Shown here piece after piece: positions 1,378 to 8,442 of a stretch of 45,913 bases of DNA. The first letter of the stretch is position 1, and every line of letters starts with the position of its first letter. Both the position numbers and the translations under genes were made by a program. Source of the stretch: Clostridiales bacterium (GTDB lineage Bacteria > Bacillota > Clostridia > Lachnospirales > Lachnospiraceae); contig JAJQAA010000038.1 in NCBI GenBank assembly GCA_021204045.1, forward strand, positions 1-45,913, read 5' to 3'. The notes under the pieces were generated by a model that saw only the letters and a program-made list of their open reading frames with translations, did no database searches and was not told the DNA's origin.

Positions 1378-1385
1378 CAAGTTGG
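1378..1385. repeat. Left copy of 8-bp IS66 target-site duplication
   Basis: CAAGTTGG directly precedes the left terminal repeat and recurs exactly at 8435-8442. An 8-bp duplication is the hallmark of IS66-family insertion (established). Confidence 0.9.
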
Positions 1386-1408
1386 GTAAGCGCCTAAATT
1401 TTGGGCGG
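1386..1408 (+). repeat. IS66 left terminal inverted repeat
   Basis: Begins GTAAGCGCC, the typical GTAAGCG start of IS66-family ends. It matches the reverse complement of 8412-8434 at 22 of 23 positions. Confidence 0.9.
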
Positions 1409-1528
1409 CTTCCCAGATAACATTTTTCCTCTCATAATGGTAGTGAATCATTTTTTATCCATTTCGATCCGGTAACGGTTAGTAACCGGTAGAAATTCAC
1501 TATCATTACAATAAGGAGGAACTTCCAA

Positions 1529-1938
1529 ATGCCAAGCACAGTGCCCGCCGTTCTGACAGCGACTGGTTCCGCATTATCCAGGAATGCAGACAAAGCGGGG
1601 TATCCGATGCCCGATGGTGTGAACAACACGGCATCTGCATCAGCTCGTTCTACAACGCAGTAACCCGGCTCCGCAGGAAAGCCTGCGCCATCCCGGAAAA
1701 AAGCAGCGCATGTGCCCTGGACCTGACATCCCGCCAGGATGTTGTCCAGATTGACATATGTCCGGATCCTTATCCGGAAACGGGTGTACCGGCAAAACCG
1801 GAGATGCCCGGCATGTACCTTGACAATCCACATACGATCGAACTCAGCATGGATGGCATAATGCTGAAAATCAGCAACTCGGCGGACCCCGCCCTGCTCG
1901 GCCATGTGATCCGGCTGGTGAAAGCGGTATCATGTTAG
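1529..1938 (+). pseudogene. tnpA: IS66 TnpA-like ORF with a frameshift after the start
   Basis: The reading frame that begins around 1531 and stops at 1938 encodes a typical IS66 first protein: DWFRIIQECRQSG, then WCEQHGICISSFYNAVTRLR (an HTH-like segment), ending RLVKAVSC. This frame has no ATG, GTG or TTG near its beginning. The only well-placed start, ATG at 1529 with AAGGAGG nine bases upstream, is in a different frame that stops after about 44 codons. One missing base just after ATGCC would restore MP-KHSARRSDSDW. I therefore call it a frameshifted tnpA; programmed frameshifting or a sequence error are alternatives. Its stop overlaps the tnpB start by 7 bases. Confidence 0.7.
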
Positions 1939-2282
1939 CCGATATTTCCGGTGTGGATGAGATCTATATCATCTGCGGGCGTACGGACATGAGGAAATCC
2001 ATTGACGGTCTCTGTGCGATCATCCAGGAAAATTTTTCGATGGATCCCCATGCGAATGCGCTGTACCTTTTCTGCGGCCGCAGATGTGACCGGATCAAAG
2101 CAATCCTGACGGAGCCGGACGGCATGGTGCTGATCTATAAAAGGCTCACGGTAACGCAGGGCCGCTACCGCTGGCCGCGTAACAAATCGGAGGCCCGCAA
2201 CCTCACGTGGAAGGAGTTTGACTGGCTGATGTCGGGTATTGATATTGACCAACCCAAAGCAATCCGGACGGCAAAAACATGA
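1932..2282 (+). CDS. tnpB: IS66 accessory protein TnpB (Orf2)
   Basis: 116-residue protein with the IS66 Orf2 signature: YIICGRTDMRKSIDGL near residues 12-27, then LYLFCGRRCDRIKAI and the DGMVLIYKRLTVTQGRYRWP stretch. IS66 transposition requires this protein in addition to the transposase (family knowledge), although its biochemical role is poorly defined. Length matches the family. The start ATG overlaps the end of tnpA, consistent with translational coupling. The gene itself looks intact. Confidence 0.92.
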   Translation: MLADISGVDEIYIICGRTDMRKSIDGLCAIIQENFSMDPHANALYLFCGRRCDRIKAILTEPDGMVLIYKRLTVTQGRYRWPRNKSEARNLTWKEFDWLMSGIDIDQPKAIRTAKT

Positions 2283-2419
2283 CATTCCAAGAGGACGGAA
2301 TCGTGTACAGAAATACCGTTTAAAAGCCTTGATTTTCGGCATTTTTCAGCACCGGTTTCCCTGTCAAAAGGATCTGCTCCGTGGTATAATAAAACCATCA
2401 GAAAACGGGGGAAAACCAC

Positions 2420-3877
2420 GTGGCAGGCAGTCCGAAAGATCTCCAATTCCGGGAGATGAAAGATACCATTACCGAACTGAATAAGCTCATTAAGACGCTC
2501 CGCGAGACCATCGAAATGTTGAAAGCCCAGCAGGAGCAGGTCAGCCAGGAACGCGACAACCTGAAAGAGCAGGTCGATTACCTGACGAAGAAGCTCTTTG
2601 GCAGATCCAGTGAAAAAGGGATTGCCCAGATCCCCGGCCAGATGGAACTCTTTAATGAGGCCGAGGCGGAACAGGACCCTGCCCTTGCCGGGCAGGAAGA
2701 AACCTTTGCCACTGAACCGCCCGCGGATAAGAAGACACGCAGGCCCCGGAAAGATAATGCCGAACGGTTCCAGGGCATCCCCGTGGAAAAACGGTATCTC
2801 GATATCCCGGAGGAAGGACGTGTCTGCGGGATCTGCGGCACCCCGCTCGAAAAGATCGGGGAGGAGTTTGTCCGGCGGGAGATCCAGTTTACCCGCCCGA
2901 AAGTAAAGATCCTCGAGTATTACAGCGTGAATTACGGATGCCCTTCCTGCAGGAAAGATGCCGAACAGCCCTGTATCATAAAAGGGAAGGAGGGCCATGC
3001 CCACAGGGTACACGGGATGGCTTCTGCATCCACGGTCGCCTGGGTCATTTACCAGAAGTATTTCAATGGGATGCCGCTGTACCGCCAGGAAAGTGACTGG
3101 AAGCAGTGCGGCGCCCGGATCAGCCGGGCAACCCTGGCAAACTGGGTGATCTGGAATGCTGACGCATTCTTCCGGCCAATGTATGATTTCTTCCGGAAAA
3201 AGCTCCTGGAGCGCCGGTTTATCATGGCGGACGAGACGGTGTGCCAGGTACTCCACGAACCGGAACGCCGGGCCCAGACGCAGTCCTATATGTGGCTTTA
3301 CCGCAGCGGGGAGGATGGCGGGCCGCCCATCATCATCTATAAATATTCCGAGACCCGGGCCGGGGAAAACGCGGTGGATTTCCTGGACGGATACAACGGT
3401 TACCTGATGTGTGACGGGTACAGCGGATACAATAAACTCCGATCCGCTAAGAGGACGGCGTGTTACGCACACATCCGGAGGTACCTGATCGACGCGATCC
3501 CTAAGGGCAAAGAGCTGGACTACACGCAGCCAGCCGTGCAGGGAGTCATGTACCTCAACCGGCTCTTTGAAGAGGAAGGGAAGATCAAAAAGAAGAATCT
3601 CCCGTTCGATGCCATCAAACAGGCCAGGCTTGAGAAAGAAAAGCCGGTGATTGAAGGCTTTTTGTCGTGGCTTGAGAAGCAGGCCCCGGTAAAAGGCTCC
3701 CGTATGGCAAAGGCAGTTACCTATGCGCGTAACCGCATCCCGTACTTTATGACTTACCTGGAGGACGGGAGGTGCAGCCTTTCCAACAACCCGAGTTTAT
3801 CCGAAGCATTTACTTATCCGCAGCTTTTTGAAAAAGCGCCTGTCTGCGGAGCTTTTTATGAAAAAAGATGCGGATAA
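2420..3877 (+). pseudogene. tnpC: IS66 transposase TnpC, 5' part (interrupted by the recombinase-trio element)
   Basis: Begins at GTG 2420 and codes for the first ~459 residues of an IS66 transposase before running into the inserted element and stopping at 3877. Visible parts are an N-terminal leucine-rich coiled coil (about residues 8-60), a zinc-finger-like CGICG...CPSC region (about 135-175), and the catalytic domain with MADETVCQ (first Asp) and MCDGYSGY (second Asp). The true sequence ends at SNNPS near 3796; the last ~27 codons derive from the insert's terminal repeat. The remaining C-terminus is at 8020-8289. Joined, the protein would be about 548 residues, normal for the family. Confidence 0.9.
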
Positions 3878-3882
3878 TCTTT
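3797..3882 (+). repeat. Left inverted end of the recombinase-trio element
   Basis: Matches the reverse complement of 7909-7993 with only three or so differences over 86 bases. It contains TTATCCGAA at 3797, TTATCCGCA at 3814 and the inverted TGCGGATAA at 3869, plus an inner CTGCGGAGC segment. Probably the recombinase binding and crossover region. Confidence 0.85.
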
Positions 3883-4920
3883 TCACCGAACTCCGCACAG
3901 GCGTGCCAGTTCCTCGTCATCCGTCCACAGCGGAGCCTCAGATAATTCAGCGTCTGGACTCCCACCCTTTTCCATTTCCCGCCGCAGCATCTCAACAGAG
4001 GGGCTTGCGTAGGATTTACGGGTTGTCAGTGTGCTGGAATGCCCAAGCAGAACAGCGATCGTTTCAATTGGGGCTCCATCCCTGTACCAGCCGGTAGCTC
4101 TTGTTCTCCGAAGCATATGCAGGTATATTTGCGGGGGCAAGTCCGATTTAGATTTTCGCACTATGTCACCGTATTTCTTTACGATCCGCTCAAGGTTTCT
4201 TTCCAACATTCGCCCCATTTGTCCTTTAATTACAGTATAGATAAACGGAGTGGCTTTCTGCCGATGCTGCTCGTGATAAAGCTCCATGTACTGTCTGATC
4301 AACGGAACTGTTTTTTCCGACAGCGCCACAATGCGCTCTTTGTCTCCTTTGCCATGTATACGGAGATACGGTTCCGAGCAAGTGAAATTTACATCTGACA
4401 CATCTAGTTCGATCAGTTCATCTGCACGTATCGCCGTGTCATAGAGAATTACAAGGATCAGCTGATCTCTGATCCCAATCTTAGATGGACCAGGTGCTGA
4501 CAGAAGCATGGCAAGTGTTTCCTTATCATCAATGGTCTTCTGTATTCTTGACGGTACGGTTACATAAGGCACTTCCGAAACATTCATGTAAATTTGAATC
4601 AGATCCGGCTTTCGTGTCGCAACGTACCGCATGTACGCAGTTATGACAGTCAGCCGGTGGTTCACGGTCCTTGGCTTATACCCCTTGTTTTCAAGAAAAA
4701 TCCGGTAATCCAAAAGAAAGTCATAGGTGAGATCCGCGAACCGGAAGCGCTCTATCGGGATTCCACAGTTATCTGATAAATATCGGCGAAAGATGGTCAG
4801 CGCATCTGCATATGCTTCTGCCGTCTGCGGACTGTCCTGATGCTGGGACGGAAGAAAGATATTCAGATAATCCCATGTCAGGGAGAAAAAGAGCTCCTCT
4901 TTTAAAATCTTTTTCTTCAT
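3883..4920 (-). CDS. Tyrosine recombinase/integrase, third gene of the trio
   Basis: 345-residue phage-integrase-family recombinase. The N-terminal SAM-like core-binding domain spans about residues 1-115 (LTWDYLNIFLPSQHQ... is typical). The catalytic domain shows the full tetrad context: the first Arg in DTAIRADELIEL, a Lys in HGKGDKERIV, HMLRRTRAT for the His-x-x-Arg box, LLGHSST for the second His, and the nucleophile Tyr in RKSYASPS. Start ATG at 4920 overlaps the preceding recombinase stop as ATGA. The stop lies immediately inside the left inverted repeat. It presumably acts together with its two partners to move the element. Confidence 0.9.
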   Translation of the reverse strand: MKKKILKEELFFSLTWDYLNIFLPSQHQDSPQTAEAYADALTIFRRYLSDNCGIPIERFRFADLTYDFLLDYRIFLENKGYKPRTVNHRLTVITAYMRYVATRKPDLIQIYMNVSEVPYVTVPSRIQKTIDDKETLAMLLSAPGPSKIGIRDQLILVILYDTAIRADELIELDVSDVNFTCSEPYLRIHGKGDKERIVALSEKTVPLIRQYMELYHEQHRQKATPFIYTVIKGQMGRMLERNLERIVKKYGDIVRKSKSDLPPQIYLHMLRRTRATGWYRDGAPIETIAVLLGHSSTLTTRKSYASPSVEMLRREMEKGGSPDAELSEAPLWTDDEELARLCGVR

Positions 4921-5900
4921 CTGCGTCTCACCTCCGGAATCACACTGGCTGCCACGGTATCTTTCTGTTCGATGATTCGGAAAGCTTCTGAAACCATGTG
5001 GTAGTAGTAAAAACTCTCATCCGGGTCACGATGCCCCAGATACTTGCTTAAATATGGCAGCATCACGTTGACATCGGCGCCTTCCAGGATCCATCGGTTG
5101 ATGCGGTTGACGACAAAAGTATGCCTGAGACAGTGAGGTGTCGGCTTCCTGTCACAGCTTTTTGAGTACTGTGTTGCGTTCCAGAAAGCTTCAAACTTCT
5201 TGTCAATCTGGGTCTTTGAGACATGGTTGGCCGGGTTTCTGCCAGGGAAAAACCAGACAGGTTCGAAGCCAAGCGTTCTCTTTAAATGGCTGAAATATTT
5301 TCCTGCCAAAAGCCGCAGATCCTCCGGCATGTAAACCAGCCGGTCCTTATGGTTCTTTCCTTCTTTTATCGTCAGAATACCATTTTCAAGGTCAACATCG
5401 GAGGTTTTCAGGGAACATGCTTCATTGTTCCGCATGCCGCAGCAATAATAAAAGCGAAAAATAACCGGGTATTCGTCAGCCATTCTGAGAAAAACAGCTG
5501 CCGGAGCTTCTGGATAATACCCATCAATCACAAGAAAAAGTTCGCGAATCTCATCATCACTGAGGATGTGGATTACCGGATGGTCATCACCGATGCGAAT
5601 GAGCGGCACATAGGTCTGGATGCCGAGTATATTCATATAAAAGGCAAGAGATCGCAGGGTACTAACTCTGCTCTGCTGGCTGCTTTTGCCTTCGGAAGGA
5701 AGGCAGCACAGCCATTCACTGACCCTTTCCGCTGTAATGACTGCATCGTCATATCCATGGGCAATCCAGTAATCATCAAACCGTTTGAGGTTATAGGCCT
5801 GGACATTATAGATAAATCCGAGCTTTCTCTTTTCAGATACAAGCCCACCCATGTAAGGAGCAAGGGCACTGTGATAAATATAATTCCTGTAATCAGTCAT
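4917..5900 (-). CDS. Tyrosine recombinase/integrase, second gene of the trio
   Basis: 327-residue tyrosine recombinase starting at ATG 5900 (protein begins MTDYRNYIYHS). I prefer this start because it overlaps the upstream recombinase stop by just 8 bases (ATGACTGA); a longer frame reaching 6086 would lie wholly within that gene. Catalytic signatures are CCGMRNNEACSL (Arg), EGKNHKDRLV (Lys), PHCLRHTFVV (His-x-x-Arg), YLGHRDPDES (His) and the FYYYH tyrosine cluster. The N-terminal part is a SAM-like DNA-binding domain. All residues required for strand cleavage appear present, so the protein is probably active. Confidence 0.9.
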   Translation of the reverse strand: MTDYRNYIYHSALAPYMGGLVSEKRKLGFIYNVQAYNLKRFDDYWIAHGYDDAVITAERVSEWLCCLPSEGKSSQQSRVSTLRSLAFYMNILGIQTYVPLIRIGDDHPVIHILSDDEIRELFLVIDGYYPEAPAAVFLRMADEYPVIFRFYYCCGMRNNEACSLKTSDVDLENGILTIKEGKNHKDRLVYMPEDLRLLAGKYFSHLKRTLGFEPVWFFPGRNPANHVSKTQIDKKFEAFWNATQYSKSCDRKPTPHCLRHTFVVNRINRWILEGADVNVMLPYLSKYLGHRDPDESFYYYHMVSEAFRIIEQKDTVAASVIPEVRRR

Positions 5901-7860
5901 AACGCCTGCCCTCCATCGTAAGATTTGCTTCTTCCAAAGAGATCGGGCATAAGCGCATCCGGTCCGGATCAAGGTTAAGATAGCAGGAAACCGATGCTGT
6001 TCCCCGATGCCCCAGCAGATCCGCCACAATGCCCTGGCCGACATTTCGCTGAAGCTGCTCTGTTGCAAAGGTTTTTCGCGTGACATGAAAGCCAGAGCCT
6101 GGGCAGTTGCGATCCGGTAGCGTATGCGTCAACGCATAACGGCACGCAGCAGGGGACAGTAAGTCATAGGGAACCCTTACTTTCACAAAAACAGAATGGC
6201 AGGCGGTTTCCGGACGGCCGTTTTTGATGTAGAGATAGATGGCATTTCCAACATCTGTTGGCATGGGCAATTCAATCTCATGCCGGGTTTTCTGCTGCAT
6301 AACCCGTATTGTCTGCTGCTTCCAGTTGATATCCTGGAACGTCAGCTTCACGATATCACTGCTGCGAAGTCCCATTTTCAGCCCCAGAAGAAGGATTGCA
6401 TGGCTGCGGAGTTCTGTAGATGTGGATGCCTGTTTTCCAGCCTGTTCTATTCCCGCTTTTTCATCTTCTGAGAGGGTGATGACGACATTCTCTTTCAGTG
6501 CAACTGTACAGGCAAGGGAAAATGACATTCCATAAGGAATCAGATTTCGCCGCTCAAGGAATAGAAGAAATCTTCTGATTCTTACATTATAAGCATTCTT
6601 TCCTTCAATGGTCATATGCTGATCGGTCTGGTTAAACATTTTTATATGTTCCACTGTTATGTCAGAAAAAGAATTGACATGCTGCTTAACCAGAAAGAAA
6701 CAAAACCTTGTTGTCGAGGATCTGTACATGGAAAGTGTGGACGGTTCCCAGCCTTCTTTTGTTTTTAATTTCAGAAAATCCTCCAGTGTTTTCCGGCACC
6801 ATTCAGGAAGCGAATTGCATCGGTACGGCTGATTTCTAAAAATAACCTGCGGAATCACATCCCCTTCTTTCGTATATAACTCGAAAAGGTCCAGAATACG
6901 CCGTTTCTGTTTCCATCCGGTGCCTTTACTGATAAGTATCTCTGGTTCCAGATATACAGAGGCAATCTCACGGTTATAACCCAGCCCGTGCATCTCTAAG
7001 AATAGCAGGAGATGATTGAGCGTCGATTTTGCCACTTTGCAAGGGGTTCCACTGTAACCGAGAGAATAAAAACATTCCAGAAAACCAGGAATAAGATCTG
7101 CGTACTTTTCTGAAGGAAAGGTCTGGCTTTCATTTCTCAGGGCTTCAATTCTGCAGATCTGTTCCTGCGAAAGATCCTGCATAAGCAGAACGTTTCCATG
7201 CATCCTAAAATAGGGATACCAGCCAAGCCCATGACTGCACATTCCCTTGGATGCCATGAAGAGGAGGATATCCCCAATCACATACGTGTATTTAGCATCG
7301 GAATTGTGAGATTTGTGGGCGTCATCTTTTATGTATGATTCCAGTACCTGAAATGTTATCTCCGACGGATTTGTTATGCCATTGGACTGGATGCTGTGTA
7401 AAAATCTTGCAGCGCAGTTCCGTACCTGTGTCAGTGAGCGTTCTTTTTGATCAAGGGTGGAAAGATAATCGTCCAACAGATCCTTCCATGGCTCGCACAG
7501 GCTGGCATAATGTGAGACAATGGCAGGAAACGCATTTATCGGCTGGACATTTCCATAACGGAAGAAATCATCCAGCCTGAGTAATGCAGACAGGGAACCT
7601 TTTGGATACGGACCGGTATCCCGAAACCACTGGCCAGCCACATCTGTAGTATAACTCTGACCGCTCTCGATAAGAAAAACACGAAGCTTTTCCAAACAGC
7701 GGACTGTGCAATAATATAGCGTGATTCCTACGCCGCGCTGTACCAGATAATTTATAACATTTCTGCAGTTGCTGTCATAGATTGCCAGCCATTTGTGCGT
7801 GATGTAAAGTTTCTCGTTACATTCACGTTCATAAAATAAATCACGTCTTGGTCTTGCCAT
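5893..7860 (-). CDS. Large tyrosine recombinase/integrase, first gene of the trio
   Basis: 655-residue recombinase with a much longer N-terminal half than a normal integrase (about 330 residues before the core-binding region), a feature reminiscent of Tn554 TnpB. Catalytic residues can be placed at Arg499 (GLRSSDIV), Lys524 (MQQKTRHE), His592 and Arg595 (FHVTRKTFAT), His618 (LLGHRG) and Tyr627 (SCYLNLD). ATG 7860 is preceded by AGGAGGTG, so the start is secure. As the first gene of the operon it is read from a promoter located inside the right end of the element. The long N-terminus may contact the repeated terminal motifs or the other recombinases (inference). Confidence 0.9.
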   Translation of the reverse strand: MARPRRDLFYERECNEKLYITHKWLAIYDSNCRNVINYLVQRGVGITLYYCTVRCLEKLRVFLIESGQSYTTDVAGQWFRDTGPYPKGSLSALLRLDDFFRYGNVQPINAFPAIVSHYASLCEPWKDLLDDYLSTLDQKERSLTQVRNCAARFLHSIQSNGITNPSEITFQVLESYIKDDAHKSHNSDAKYTYVIGDILLFMASKGMCSHGLGWYPYFRMHGNVLLMQDLSQEQICRIEALRNESQTFPSEKYADLIPGFLECFYSLGYSGTPCKVAKSTLNHLLLFLEMHGLGYNREIASVYLEPEILISKGTGWKQKRRILDLFELYTKEGDVIPQVIFRNQPYRCNSLPEWCRKTLEDFLKLKTKEGWEPSTLSMYRSSTTRFCFFLVKQHVNSFSDITVEHIKMFNQTDQHMTIEGKNAYNVRIRRFLLFLERRNLIPYGMSFSLACTVALKENVVITLSEDEKAGIEQAGKQASTSTELRSHAILLLGLKMGLRSSDIVKLTFQDINWKQQTIRVMQQKTRHEIELPMPTDVGNAIYLYIKNGRPETACHSVFVKVRVPYDLLSPAACRYALTHTLPDRNCPGSGFHVTRKTFATEQLQRNVGQGIVADLLGHRGTASVSCYLNLDPDRMRLCPISLEEANLTMEGRRYD

Positions 7861-7898
7861 AATCAGCGCACCTCCTAAAATTTGATGTGCTGATTATA
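7859..7898 (-). promoter_or_regulatory. Recombinase operon -10 element and ribosome-site hairpin
   Basis: On the minus strand a perfect TATAAT (7898-7893) lies ~35 bases upstream of the first recombinase ATG, without an obvious -35. Between it and the ATG is an inverted repeat: ATAATCAGCGCA next to the start codon (7859-7870) pairs, with one mismatch, with TGTGCTGATTAT (7886-7897). The ribosome site AGGAGG sits in the loop. The transcript 5' region could fold so that expression is restrained, or the DNA palindrome could be an operator. Confidence 0.45.
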
Positions 7899-7908
7899 TC
7901 GCAGTGAT

Positions 7909-7993
7909 AAAGATTATCCGCATCTTTTTCATAAAAAGCTCCGCAGACAGTCGCTTTTTCAAAAAGATGCGGATAAGTAAATGCTTCGGATAA
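7909..7993 (-). repeat. Right inverted end of the recombinase-trio element
   Basis: Inverted counterpart of 3797-3882. It contains TTATCCGCA at 7914, TGCGGATAA at 7968 and TTCGGATAA at 7985. Unlike the left end, a further TTCGGATAA copy follows outside it at 8011-8019, so the right end has one more terminal motif than the left end. Confidence 0.85.
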
Positions 7994-8019
7994 TGATGCT
8001 TATGCGAATGTTCGGATAA

Positions 8020-8289
8020 GCATCGGAGAATTGCATCCGTCCGTTTGTCGTAGGGCGCAAGGGATGGCTTTTCAGCGACCGCCCGGTCGGGGCTGAGGCC
8101 AGCGCTATGTGTTATACGATGGTAGAGATGGCAAGGGCAAATGGAGTAAACGCCTACCACTACCTTTGCCTGCTCCTGGAGAAGCTGCCAGACGGTAGCC
8201 CGACAGACGGGGAACTGGAGCAGCTGGCACCATGGAGTGAATCTATGAAAGCGGAAGTCGCACAGATGATGCTGGCAGAAAATCAATAG
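8020..8289 (+). pseudogene. tnpC: IS66 transposase TnpC, 3' remnant
   Basis: In-frame C-terminal continuation of tnpC, 89 codons without its own start: SENCIRPFVVGRKGWLF, then SDRPVGAEASAMCYTMVEMA and LPWSESMKAEVAQMM. IS66 transposases normally have a contiguous NN-x-x-E-x-x-IRPFVVGRKNW sequence, so the trio element landed within the motif that carries the catalytic glutamate. The fragment cannot be translated together with the 5' part. Confidence 0.88.
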
Positions 8290-8411
8290 GCTGAAATCGA
8301 TCTTATGTGGATTGTCAAGGTGCTTTGACCGTATGTTACGGCCAGGGCATTTTTGAATTGGAGCAAAAAAATACTTCTTACTTCAAAAATACAGTAGTAT
8401 GGATAGTCCTA

Positions 8412-8434
8412 CCGCCCAAAATTTAGGCGCCTAC
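8412..8434 (-). repeat. IS66 right terminal inverted repeat
   Basis: Reads, on the minus strand, GTAGGCGCC and then the same core as the left end; a single mismatch (A/G at position 4). Confidence 0.9.
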
Positions 8435-8442
8435 CAAGTTGG
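8435..8442. repeat. Right copy of 8-bp IS66 target-site duplication
   Basis: CAAGTTGG, identical to 1378-1385. Confidence 0.9.

Follow-up and report, generated by a model that had tools for sequence, protein, structure and literature searches.

How does a trio of recombinase genes come to lie inside the transposase gene of another mobile element, and is that place a target or an accident? This question is raised by a stretch of 45,913 nucleotides from Clostridiales bacterium (Lachnospiraceae; assembly GCA_021204045.1, contig JAJQAA010000038.1), the whole of which we call the window. Here a RIT-type element of 4.2 kb, encoding the tyrosine recombinases RitA, RitB and RitC, interrupts the transposase gene tnpC of an IS66 element after codon 457. 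Comparison of its junctions with those of relatives makes it likely that a RIT-family transposon of a Clostridial lineage inserts site-specifically in IS66 tnpC, through a 6-bp crossover directly before a conserved Glu codon.

Relatives were gathered from genome and plasmid collections. We searched with RitA, which is unusually long in the window, through 24 genomes of the genus (the window's own included), 397 of the family, 392 of the order and 391 of the class at cut-offs of 1e-60 or 1e-50; in the larger collections at most three candidates per genome were scored. The resulting tree holds 22 large-RitA elements, 16 of them with at least one readable flank (L021, L023, L037, L040, L041 and L053 have none). 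An IS66 location was found for 10 of the 16. Eight lie in tnpC (the window's, L022a, L024, L025, L027, L039, L043 and L052), and two from another clade, L038 and L054, lie in tnpB directly before a TDMRK motif. The window's RitA clade has eight members and support of 100/100; two of these cannot be read at either flank, and the other six all lie in tnpC. Outside this clade, two more distant Clostridial elements also occupy the same tnpC codons. On a Bacteroides ovatus plasmid (NZ_CP041396), a RIT of archetypal size, L079, is inserted in IS66 tnpC with the same layout and a spacer displaced by 1 nt.

The insertion point in tnpC is therefore common to nine elements: eight agree to the base where the junction is readable, and L079 is off by 1 nt. 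When these sites are compared with uninterrupted tnpC genes, the two halves are exactly 6 nt apart in six of six cases. The site has the motif NN-(2 residues)-E, in which the 6 bp encode both residues preceding the Glu. All eight readable Clostridial 3' halves open with the codon for this Glu, which we take to be the catalytic Glu of the DDE triad.

Could the disabled IS66 instead have brought the trio, as its passenger, to the present position in the chromosome by means of transposase acting in trans? The IS66 with its nested trio spans 1386–8434, a composite of about 7 kb. Its 23-bp terminal inverted repeats (GTAAGCGCCTAAATTTTGGGCGG at 1386..1408 on the plus strand and a near-perfect complement at 8412..8434 on the minus strand), its tnpB (1932..2282, plus strand; PF05717, 2.6e-36) and the 8-bp target duplication (CAAGTTGG at 1378..1385 and again at 8435..8442) are all intact, as carriage would leave them. 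However, a PF03050 search of the window's assembly, rated 99% complete, found no second IS66 transposase, and IS66 and trio are each single-copy there. The duplication would also look identical if the trio had arrived later; it indicates just that the IS66 flanks are un-rearranged and cannot date the arrival of the trio. We therefore regard carriage as possible at this locus, though improbable. The right-hand chromosomal flank has a partial match in one of the 23 other genus genomes (G014, a partial gene match), and nothing of the left flank occurs in a 5-kb stretch of G014. Because the flank is so poorly conserved among the genus genomes, no empty chromosomal site can be demonstrated.

The insertions share a layout as well as a site. 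In the orientation of the target it runs 5' half, 6-bp spacer, element, inverted 6-bp spacer, 20-nt palindrome, 6-bp spacer and 3' half. In the window, the left spacer CCGAGT (Pro-Ser; 3791..3796, plus strand), which we read as native, is followed by the element (3797..7993, minus strand), whose inverted ends (3797–3882 and 7909–7993) are identical at 67 of the outermost 69 nt. Then come the internal inverted spacer TGATGC (7994..7999, plus strand; complement GCATCA, Ala-Ser), the palindrome TTATGCGAATGTTCGGATAA on the tnpC 3' side (8000..8019, plus strand), and the right spacer GCATCG (Ala-Ser; 8020..8025, plus strand), read as foreign to this tnpC. A preliminary description of this DNA had placed the inner boundaries at 3797–8019. 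These coordinates hold, but the element's own end is at 7993, and 7994–8025 form a separate module.

In the window's clade the palindrome has the consensus TTATSCGAAyrTTCGSATAA. Among the large-RitA elements and L079, it stands at all 12 readable 3'-half flanks and at none of the seven readable 5'-half flanks. The element itself is antisense to its target in five single insertions (window, L022a, L027, L039 and L079) and sense in four (L024, L025, L038 and L043). Because the palindrome is always on the 3'-half side while the element faces either way, these junctions indicate that the palindrome tracks target polarity within this lineage and the element does not. Uninterrupted tnpC sites have no palindrome, so we take it to arrive with the element. 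L052 and L054 have a 3' half and a palindrome at either side of the element. Each of these loci (L052 3672–7954 and L054 4634–8814) carries two target 3' halves in opposite orientation, and the internal spacer of one side is identical to the outer spacer of the other, which suggests recombination between two insertions.

An exact match to the palindrome pattern was found in three of the 397 family genomes, a minimum count since more diverged palindromes escape the pattern, and a trio lies alongside in two of the three. The third genome, G051, has a solitary palindrome (L061 3093–3112, contig C32) with 10-bp inverted flanks and no adjoining trio; it stands beside the 3' part of a tnpB and is perhaps a scar. 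At the Cupriavidus trio on plasmid pHG1 (L097, near 16300), a palindrome adjoins the RitA-side end too.

The palindrome module might alternatively be an integron attC-like site, recombined as a folded single strand, with the inverted spacer as the other arm of the folded site. The module does fold into a hairpin in the window (z −6.3, none of 200 shuffles equally stable) and in L024 (z −8.2, 0 of 200), and less strongly in L022 (z −3.8, 2 of 200). Internal and right spacers are also more complementary to each other than shuffled pairs (176 of 20000 as low). However, the folds of the window and L022 end at the spacer and so comprise one arm plus spacer rather than a whole core site, and the spacers of L052 and L054 differ at 3–4 of 6 positions. 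In L024 the fold has four further pairs beyond the spacer. We consider an attC-like module doubtful. The excess of spacer complementarity calls for some later homogenisation.

The left spacer of the window, CCGAGT, equals the CCGAGC of an uninterrupted relative, L065, at five of six letters, and both encode Pro-Ser. The two right-hand spacers, GCATCA when the internal one is read as its complement and GCATCG, differ from this relative. Both still encode Ala-Ser, as if they had been brought from another tnpC. A footprint of the SE/Tn554 type retains the native 6 bp at one junction and has those of the donor at the other; it is seen here in one case, the window against L065. For L038 and L079 no near uninterrupted copy was found, so no native spacer was assigned.

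We tallied spacers at 11 Clostridial junctions, excluding L079, whose spacer is off codon phase. The internal spacer retains the coding signature of the target in 11 of 11: its second residue is Ser, Thr or Ala in all eight tnpC junctions and Gly in all three tnpB junctions. Internal and neighbouring right spacers differ in seven of the 11 and by at least two of six positions in five, and only these five carry independent weight. In L038 the spacers are ACC GGC, ACG GGC and ACT GGT, Thr-Gly spelled three ways. We read the spacers as probable remnants of past insertions into members of the same gene family.

These features can be joined in one mechanism. RitABC would form a circle whose joint carries the palindrome between two dif-like crossover sites. 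The element ends and palindrome arms share the form CGGATAA-6 bp-TTATSCG, which we take to resemble Xer dif sites. Either crossover site could be used, provided that the palindrome side faces the 3' half of the target, and the element would therefore be found facing both ways. Use of one or the other site would shift old spacers inward. As in Tn554 and SEs, the 6 bp of the target would stay at one junction while those of the donor enter at the other, so that the spacers would preserve a trace of former hosts, tnpC or tnpB. Insertion splits tnpC. For the element, IS66 would be a place to land at little cost, and the composite might in principle still be carried along if TnpC can act in trans. 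The evidence is evenly poised on a broader proposal: that this RIT lineage, widespread in Clostridia and present on at least one Bacteroides plasmid, is a dedicated IS66 parasite that targets the tnpC codons before the catalytic Glu or a conserved tnpB motif, moves by way of a circle in which two crossover sites enclose a 20-nt palindrome, and keeps a heritable 6-bp record of past IS66 hosts.

If an IS66::RIT composite had formed once and then been inherited and moved as a unit, the shared site would reflect common descent. Site and layout are indeed alike in many genomes. However, the identities of RIT and tnpC are uncoupled in both directions. Between the window and L022a, RitA is 90% identical and the tnpC 3' half 60%; between the window and L024 the values are 80% and 43%. 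Conversely, L024 and L025 share 32% identity in RitA and 78% in tnpC over 46 aa. Because the two are uncoupled, we take the insertions to be independent and reject common ancestry of one composite. The element also faces both ways. G005, a genome of the same genus, provides a natural control. Its RIT, 83% identical to the window's in nucleotides, lies inside an IS66 whose tnpC 5' half is 29% identical in amino acids to that of the window. The same genome carries a relative of the window's IS66, L065, in uninterrupted form, with 88% amino acid identity over 389 codons of the 5' half, a comparison that runs to the contig end, and 87% in the 3' half. We consider a single ancient insertion very improbable, and infer the mobility of the element from the independent insertions.

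The uninterrupted tnpC relative that the preliminary description had called for thus exists. A trio forming a stable part of a whole IS66, which would have told against nesting, was not seen among the elements opened; L038 and L054 adjoin an intact tnpC yet split tnpB. The nested arrangement recurs elsewhere. The recurrent target, the extra palindrome at the right end and the apparent spacer records had been missed by that description. Chance nesting of RITs with little specificity in a simply common IS66 would suit the six of 16 relatives located elsewhere but is hardly credible, given nine elements with a common tnpC insertion point and a single IS66 in the window's 2.75-Mb genome, and it is contradicted for the window's clade.

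Several observations weigh against site-specific insertion in IS66 or narrow its reach. With the queries of this study, six of the 16 readable large-RitA elements (L028, L042, L055, L056, L057 and L081) have no IS66, and specificity therefore belongs to clades. Not every element is whole: L024 has an internal deletion, RitA alone is seen in L042 and L043, and RitC is truncated in L022a. Almost all of the junctions were read in draft assemblies, and neither a circle nor a joint sequence was seen in the data examined. The native spacer is established in the window only. Of the 11 internal spacers, six match the right spacer exactly or almost so and add little, and the identical spacers in L024 and L039 require some later homogenisation. 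Finally, L022b, a trio of another lineage, is bounded on either side by a palindrome, one of which adjoins the 5' portion of a tnpB, and the palindrome rule is therefore not valid for all trios.

Some of these loci have features of their own. In L024 (4307–6196, G005 contig C14), about 2.1 kb have been lost, so that RitA continues directly into the final 54 residues of RitC; the two element ends and the palindrome are still present. L022b, at L022 12427–15312, is bordered on one side by the first RIT's truncated RitC and on the other by the 5' portion of an IS66 tnpB (about codon 59), and its palindromes are about 30 nt each. Seven contigs are the size of the element (L021, L023, L025, L037, L040, L041 and L053). 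None of the seven has a direct end overlap of 10–299 nt, and we rejected the idea that they are circles for want of such an overlap; they are probably collapsed repeats or contigs cut at varying flanks. The outer ends of the L037 contig share the same 54 bp, inverted, unlike the usual flanks.

Trios beyond the tree were also searched for a neighbouring IS66. Five Clostridial tnpC queries gave no match at E 1e-3 near L082, L083 (two trios) and L084–L087. Among eight plasmid loci (L078, L080 and L090–L095) there was no convincing IS66 match with these queries, which may miss proteobacterial IS66. The 40-kb stretch of pHG1 (L097) likewise gave no IS66, although an IS66-type gene is reported beside the pHG1 recombinase genes (PMC2864759); it may have been missed for the same reason or lie outside the stretch, and the negative is a weak one. 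The best tnpC match among the plasmid loci and L097 had E 0.012 over 66 aa, in L093.

The trio in the window is a large-RitA variant of the known RIT kind. All three genes are on the minus strand: RitA (5893..7860; 655 aa with a long helical N-terminal extension), RitB (4917..5900; 327 aa) and RitC (3883..4920; 345 aa). Phage_integrase (PF00589) was found in each, at 1.3e-18, 4e-17 and 1.2e-25, respectively, the value for RitB having been scored on a longer open reading frame of 389 aa. That frame looks over-extended, and we picked the ATG at 5900 by the 8-nt overlap. Neighbouring genes share 8 and 4 nt, and all three proteins contain HxxR and a candidate catalytic Tyr after LGH. Three overlapping recombinases between the halves of tnpC had been described from the sequence alone, as had a RIT-type element with clean outer and inner boundaries inside an IS66 with 23-bp inverted ends and identical 8-bp flanks; the domain matches, the ends, the duplication and the element's inverted repeats bear this out. 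RitC is 31.9% identical over 98% of its length to a pHG1 recombinase that is the third gene of its own trio. A short-overlap trio, catalytic motifs, homology to a described RIT, and inverted repeats with a nearby palindrome thus all place the element among RITs. RitB and RitC fit the archetypal range of 315–410 aa and RitA does not, although this size range is descriptive and not a stated criterion of membership. The predicted structure of RitA is a low-confidence model (mean pLDDT 54.6) of little use, with weak Foldseek matches to XerA, XerD and the Tn1549 and lambda integrases.

RIT elements were first described in Cupriavidus metallidurans CH34. In the sections of the published accounts consulted, they have, like the window's element, three adjoining tyrosine recombinase genes with 4–8 nt overlaps and catalytic motifs, as well as inverted repeats and a palindrome near one end (PMC3414803). 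Unlike the archetype, whose recombinases have 315–410 aa (PMC10214605), the window's RitA is far longer, and its element measures 4.2 kb against about 3.5 kb. A RitA with two core-binding domains has been described (PMC8138268). Individual targets are on record: ritA1B1C1 of CH34 interrupts and inactivates an IS66-family gene, another trio interrupts radC, and an IS66-type gene adjoins the pHG1 recombinase genes (PMC2864759). RITs in a Tn6049-like transposase gene are on record too, as are an inverted repeat of 28–29 bp and a palindrome near the trio (PMC3414803). In Table 1 of a 2023 paper, the movement of RITs, their empty sites and their specificity for a target are entered as not tested (PMC10214605). 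The literature searched, with subscription papers mostly outside its coverage, yielded no account of RITs that return to one IS66 site or leave 6-bp footprints. Recurrent attack on an IS66 site and a readable 6-bp history appear to be new aspects of this RIT.

A further parallel is with SEs and Tn554. In the part of the source available, these too are specific for a target, employ several tyrosine recombinases and leave a 6-bp footprint: at one junction the original 6 bp of the target persist, and at the other those of the donor appear (PMC10214605). Their targets differ from that of the window's element, those of SEs being bcp, insJ of IS3 and yjjNt (PMC10214605). The protein sets are also unlike: IntA-Tfp-IntB-Srap in SEs and TnpA-TnpB-TnpC in Tn554, against three integrase-type genes that fill the element in the window, a difference judged from gene content, without a homology search against SE or Tn554 proteins. 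No trio with palindrome and inverted spacer appears in the published descriptions of SEs and Tn554 examined, as far as these were available. Integrases of the Tn916/Tn1549 type tolerate non-identical crossover sequences of 5–6 bp (coupling sequences), as the window's element would. They differ in that one integrase acts with an excisionase in large conjugative elements of little target specificity.

The sequence gives a natural target for RITs, an empty copy of that site, a defined crossover and 6-bp footprints that appear to derive from donors, and an integration assay can therefore be designed at once. If IS66 is a standing target, these RITs would be transposons whose habitat is a second transposon, which they disrupt at a conserved motif of its active site.

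Short DNA matches occur in G011, G048 and G114. The viral_contigs collection held no close relative of RitA or tnpC and no exact palindrome match. Weak matches to RitA occur in 12 phage records, none of them extending across 80% of the protein. On these results, carriage by a phage or virus was rejected.

The outer element has the features of the IS66 family: the 8-bp duplication, inverted ends, DDE_Tnp_IS66 and the order tnpA-tnpB-tnpC, with tnpC interrupted and tnpA (1504..1938, plus strand; an open frame) named by position only. This presumed tnpA frame has no in-frame ATG, GTG or TTG close to its ribosome-binding site. The 5' half of tnpC (codons 1–457; 2420..3790, plus strand) matches PF03050, PF13007 and PF13005, with PF03050 at 2.8e-71 over profile positions 1–258 of 284, and uninterrupted homologues resume 6 nt beyond its end. 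The 3' half, from the conserved Glu (ENCIRPFVVGRKGW...) to the stop (8026..8289, plus strand), was identified by alignment to uninterrupted relatives and not by family scan. The IS66 measures about 2.8 kb when the insert is discounted. A 32-bp subterminal inverted repeat (1817–1848 and 8290–8321, 91% complementary) lies within it, and pieces matching this repeat occur in the related IS66 copies L065 and L066. Elsewhere in the window's genome, a solitary repeat resembles the left end of IS66 at 90% over 39 bp (L005; G000, contig C41, 31092–31130).

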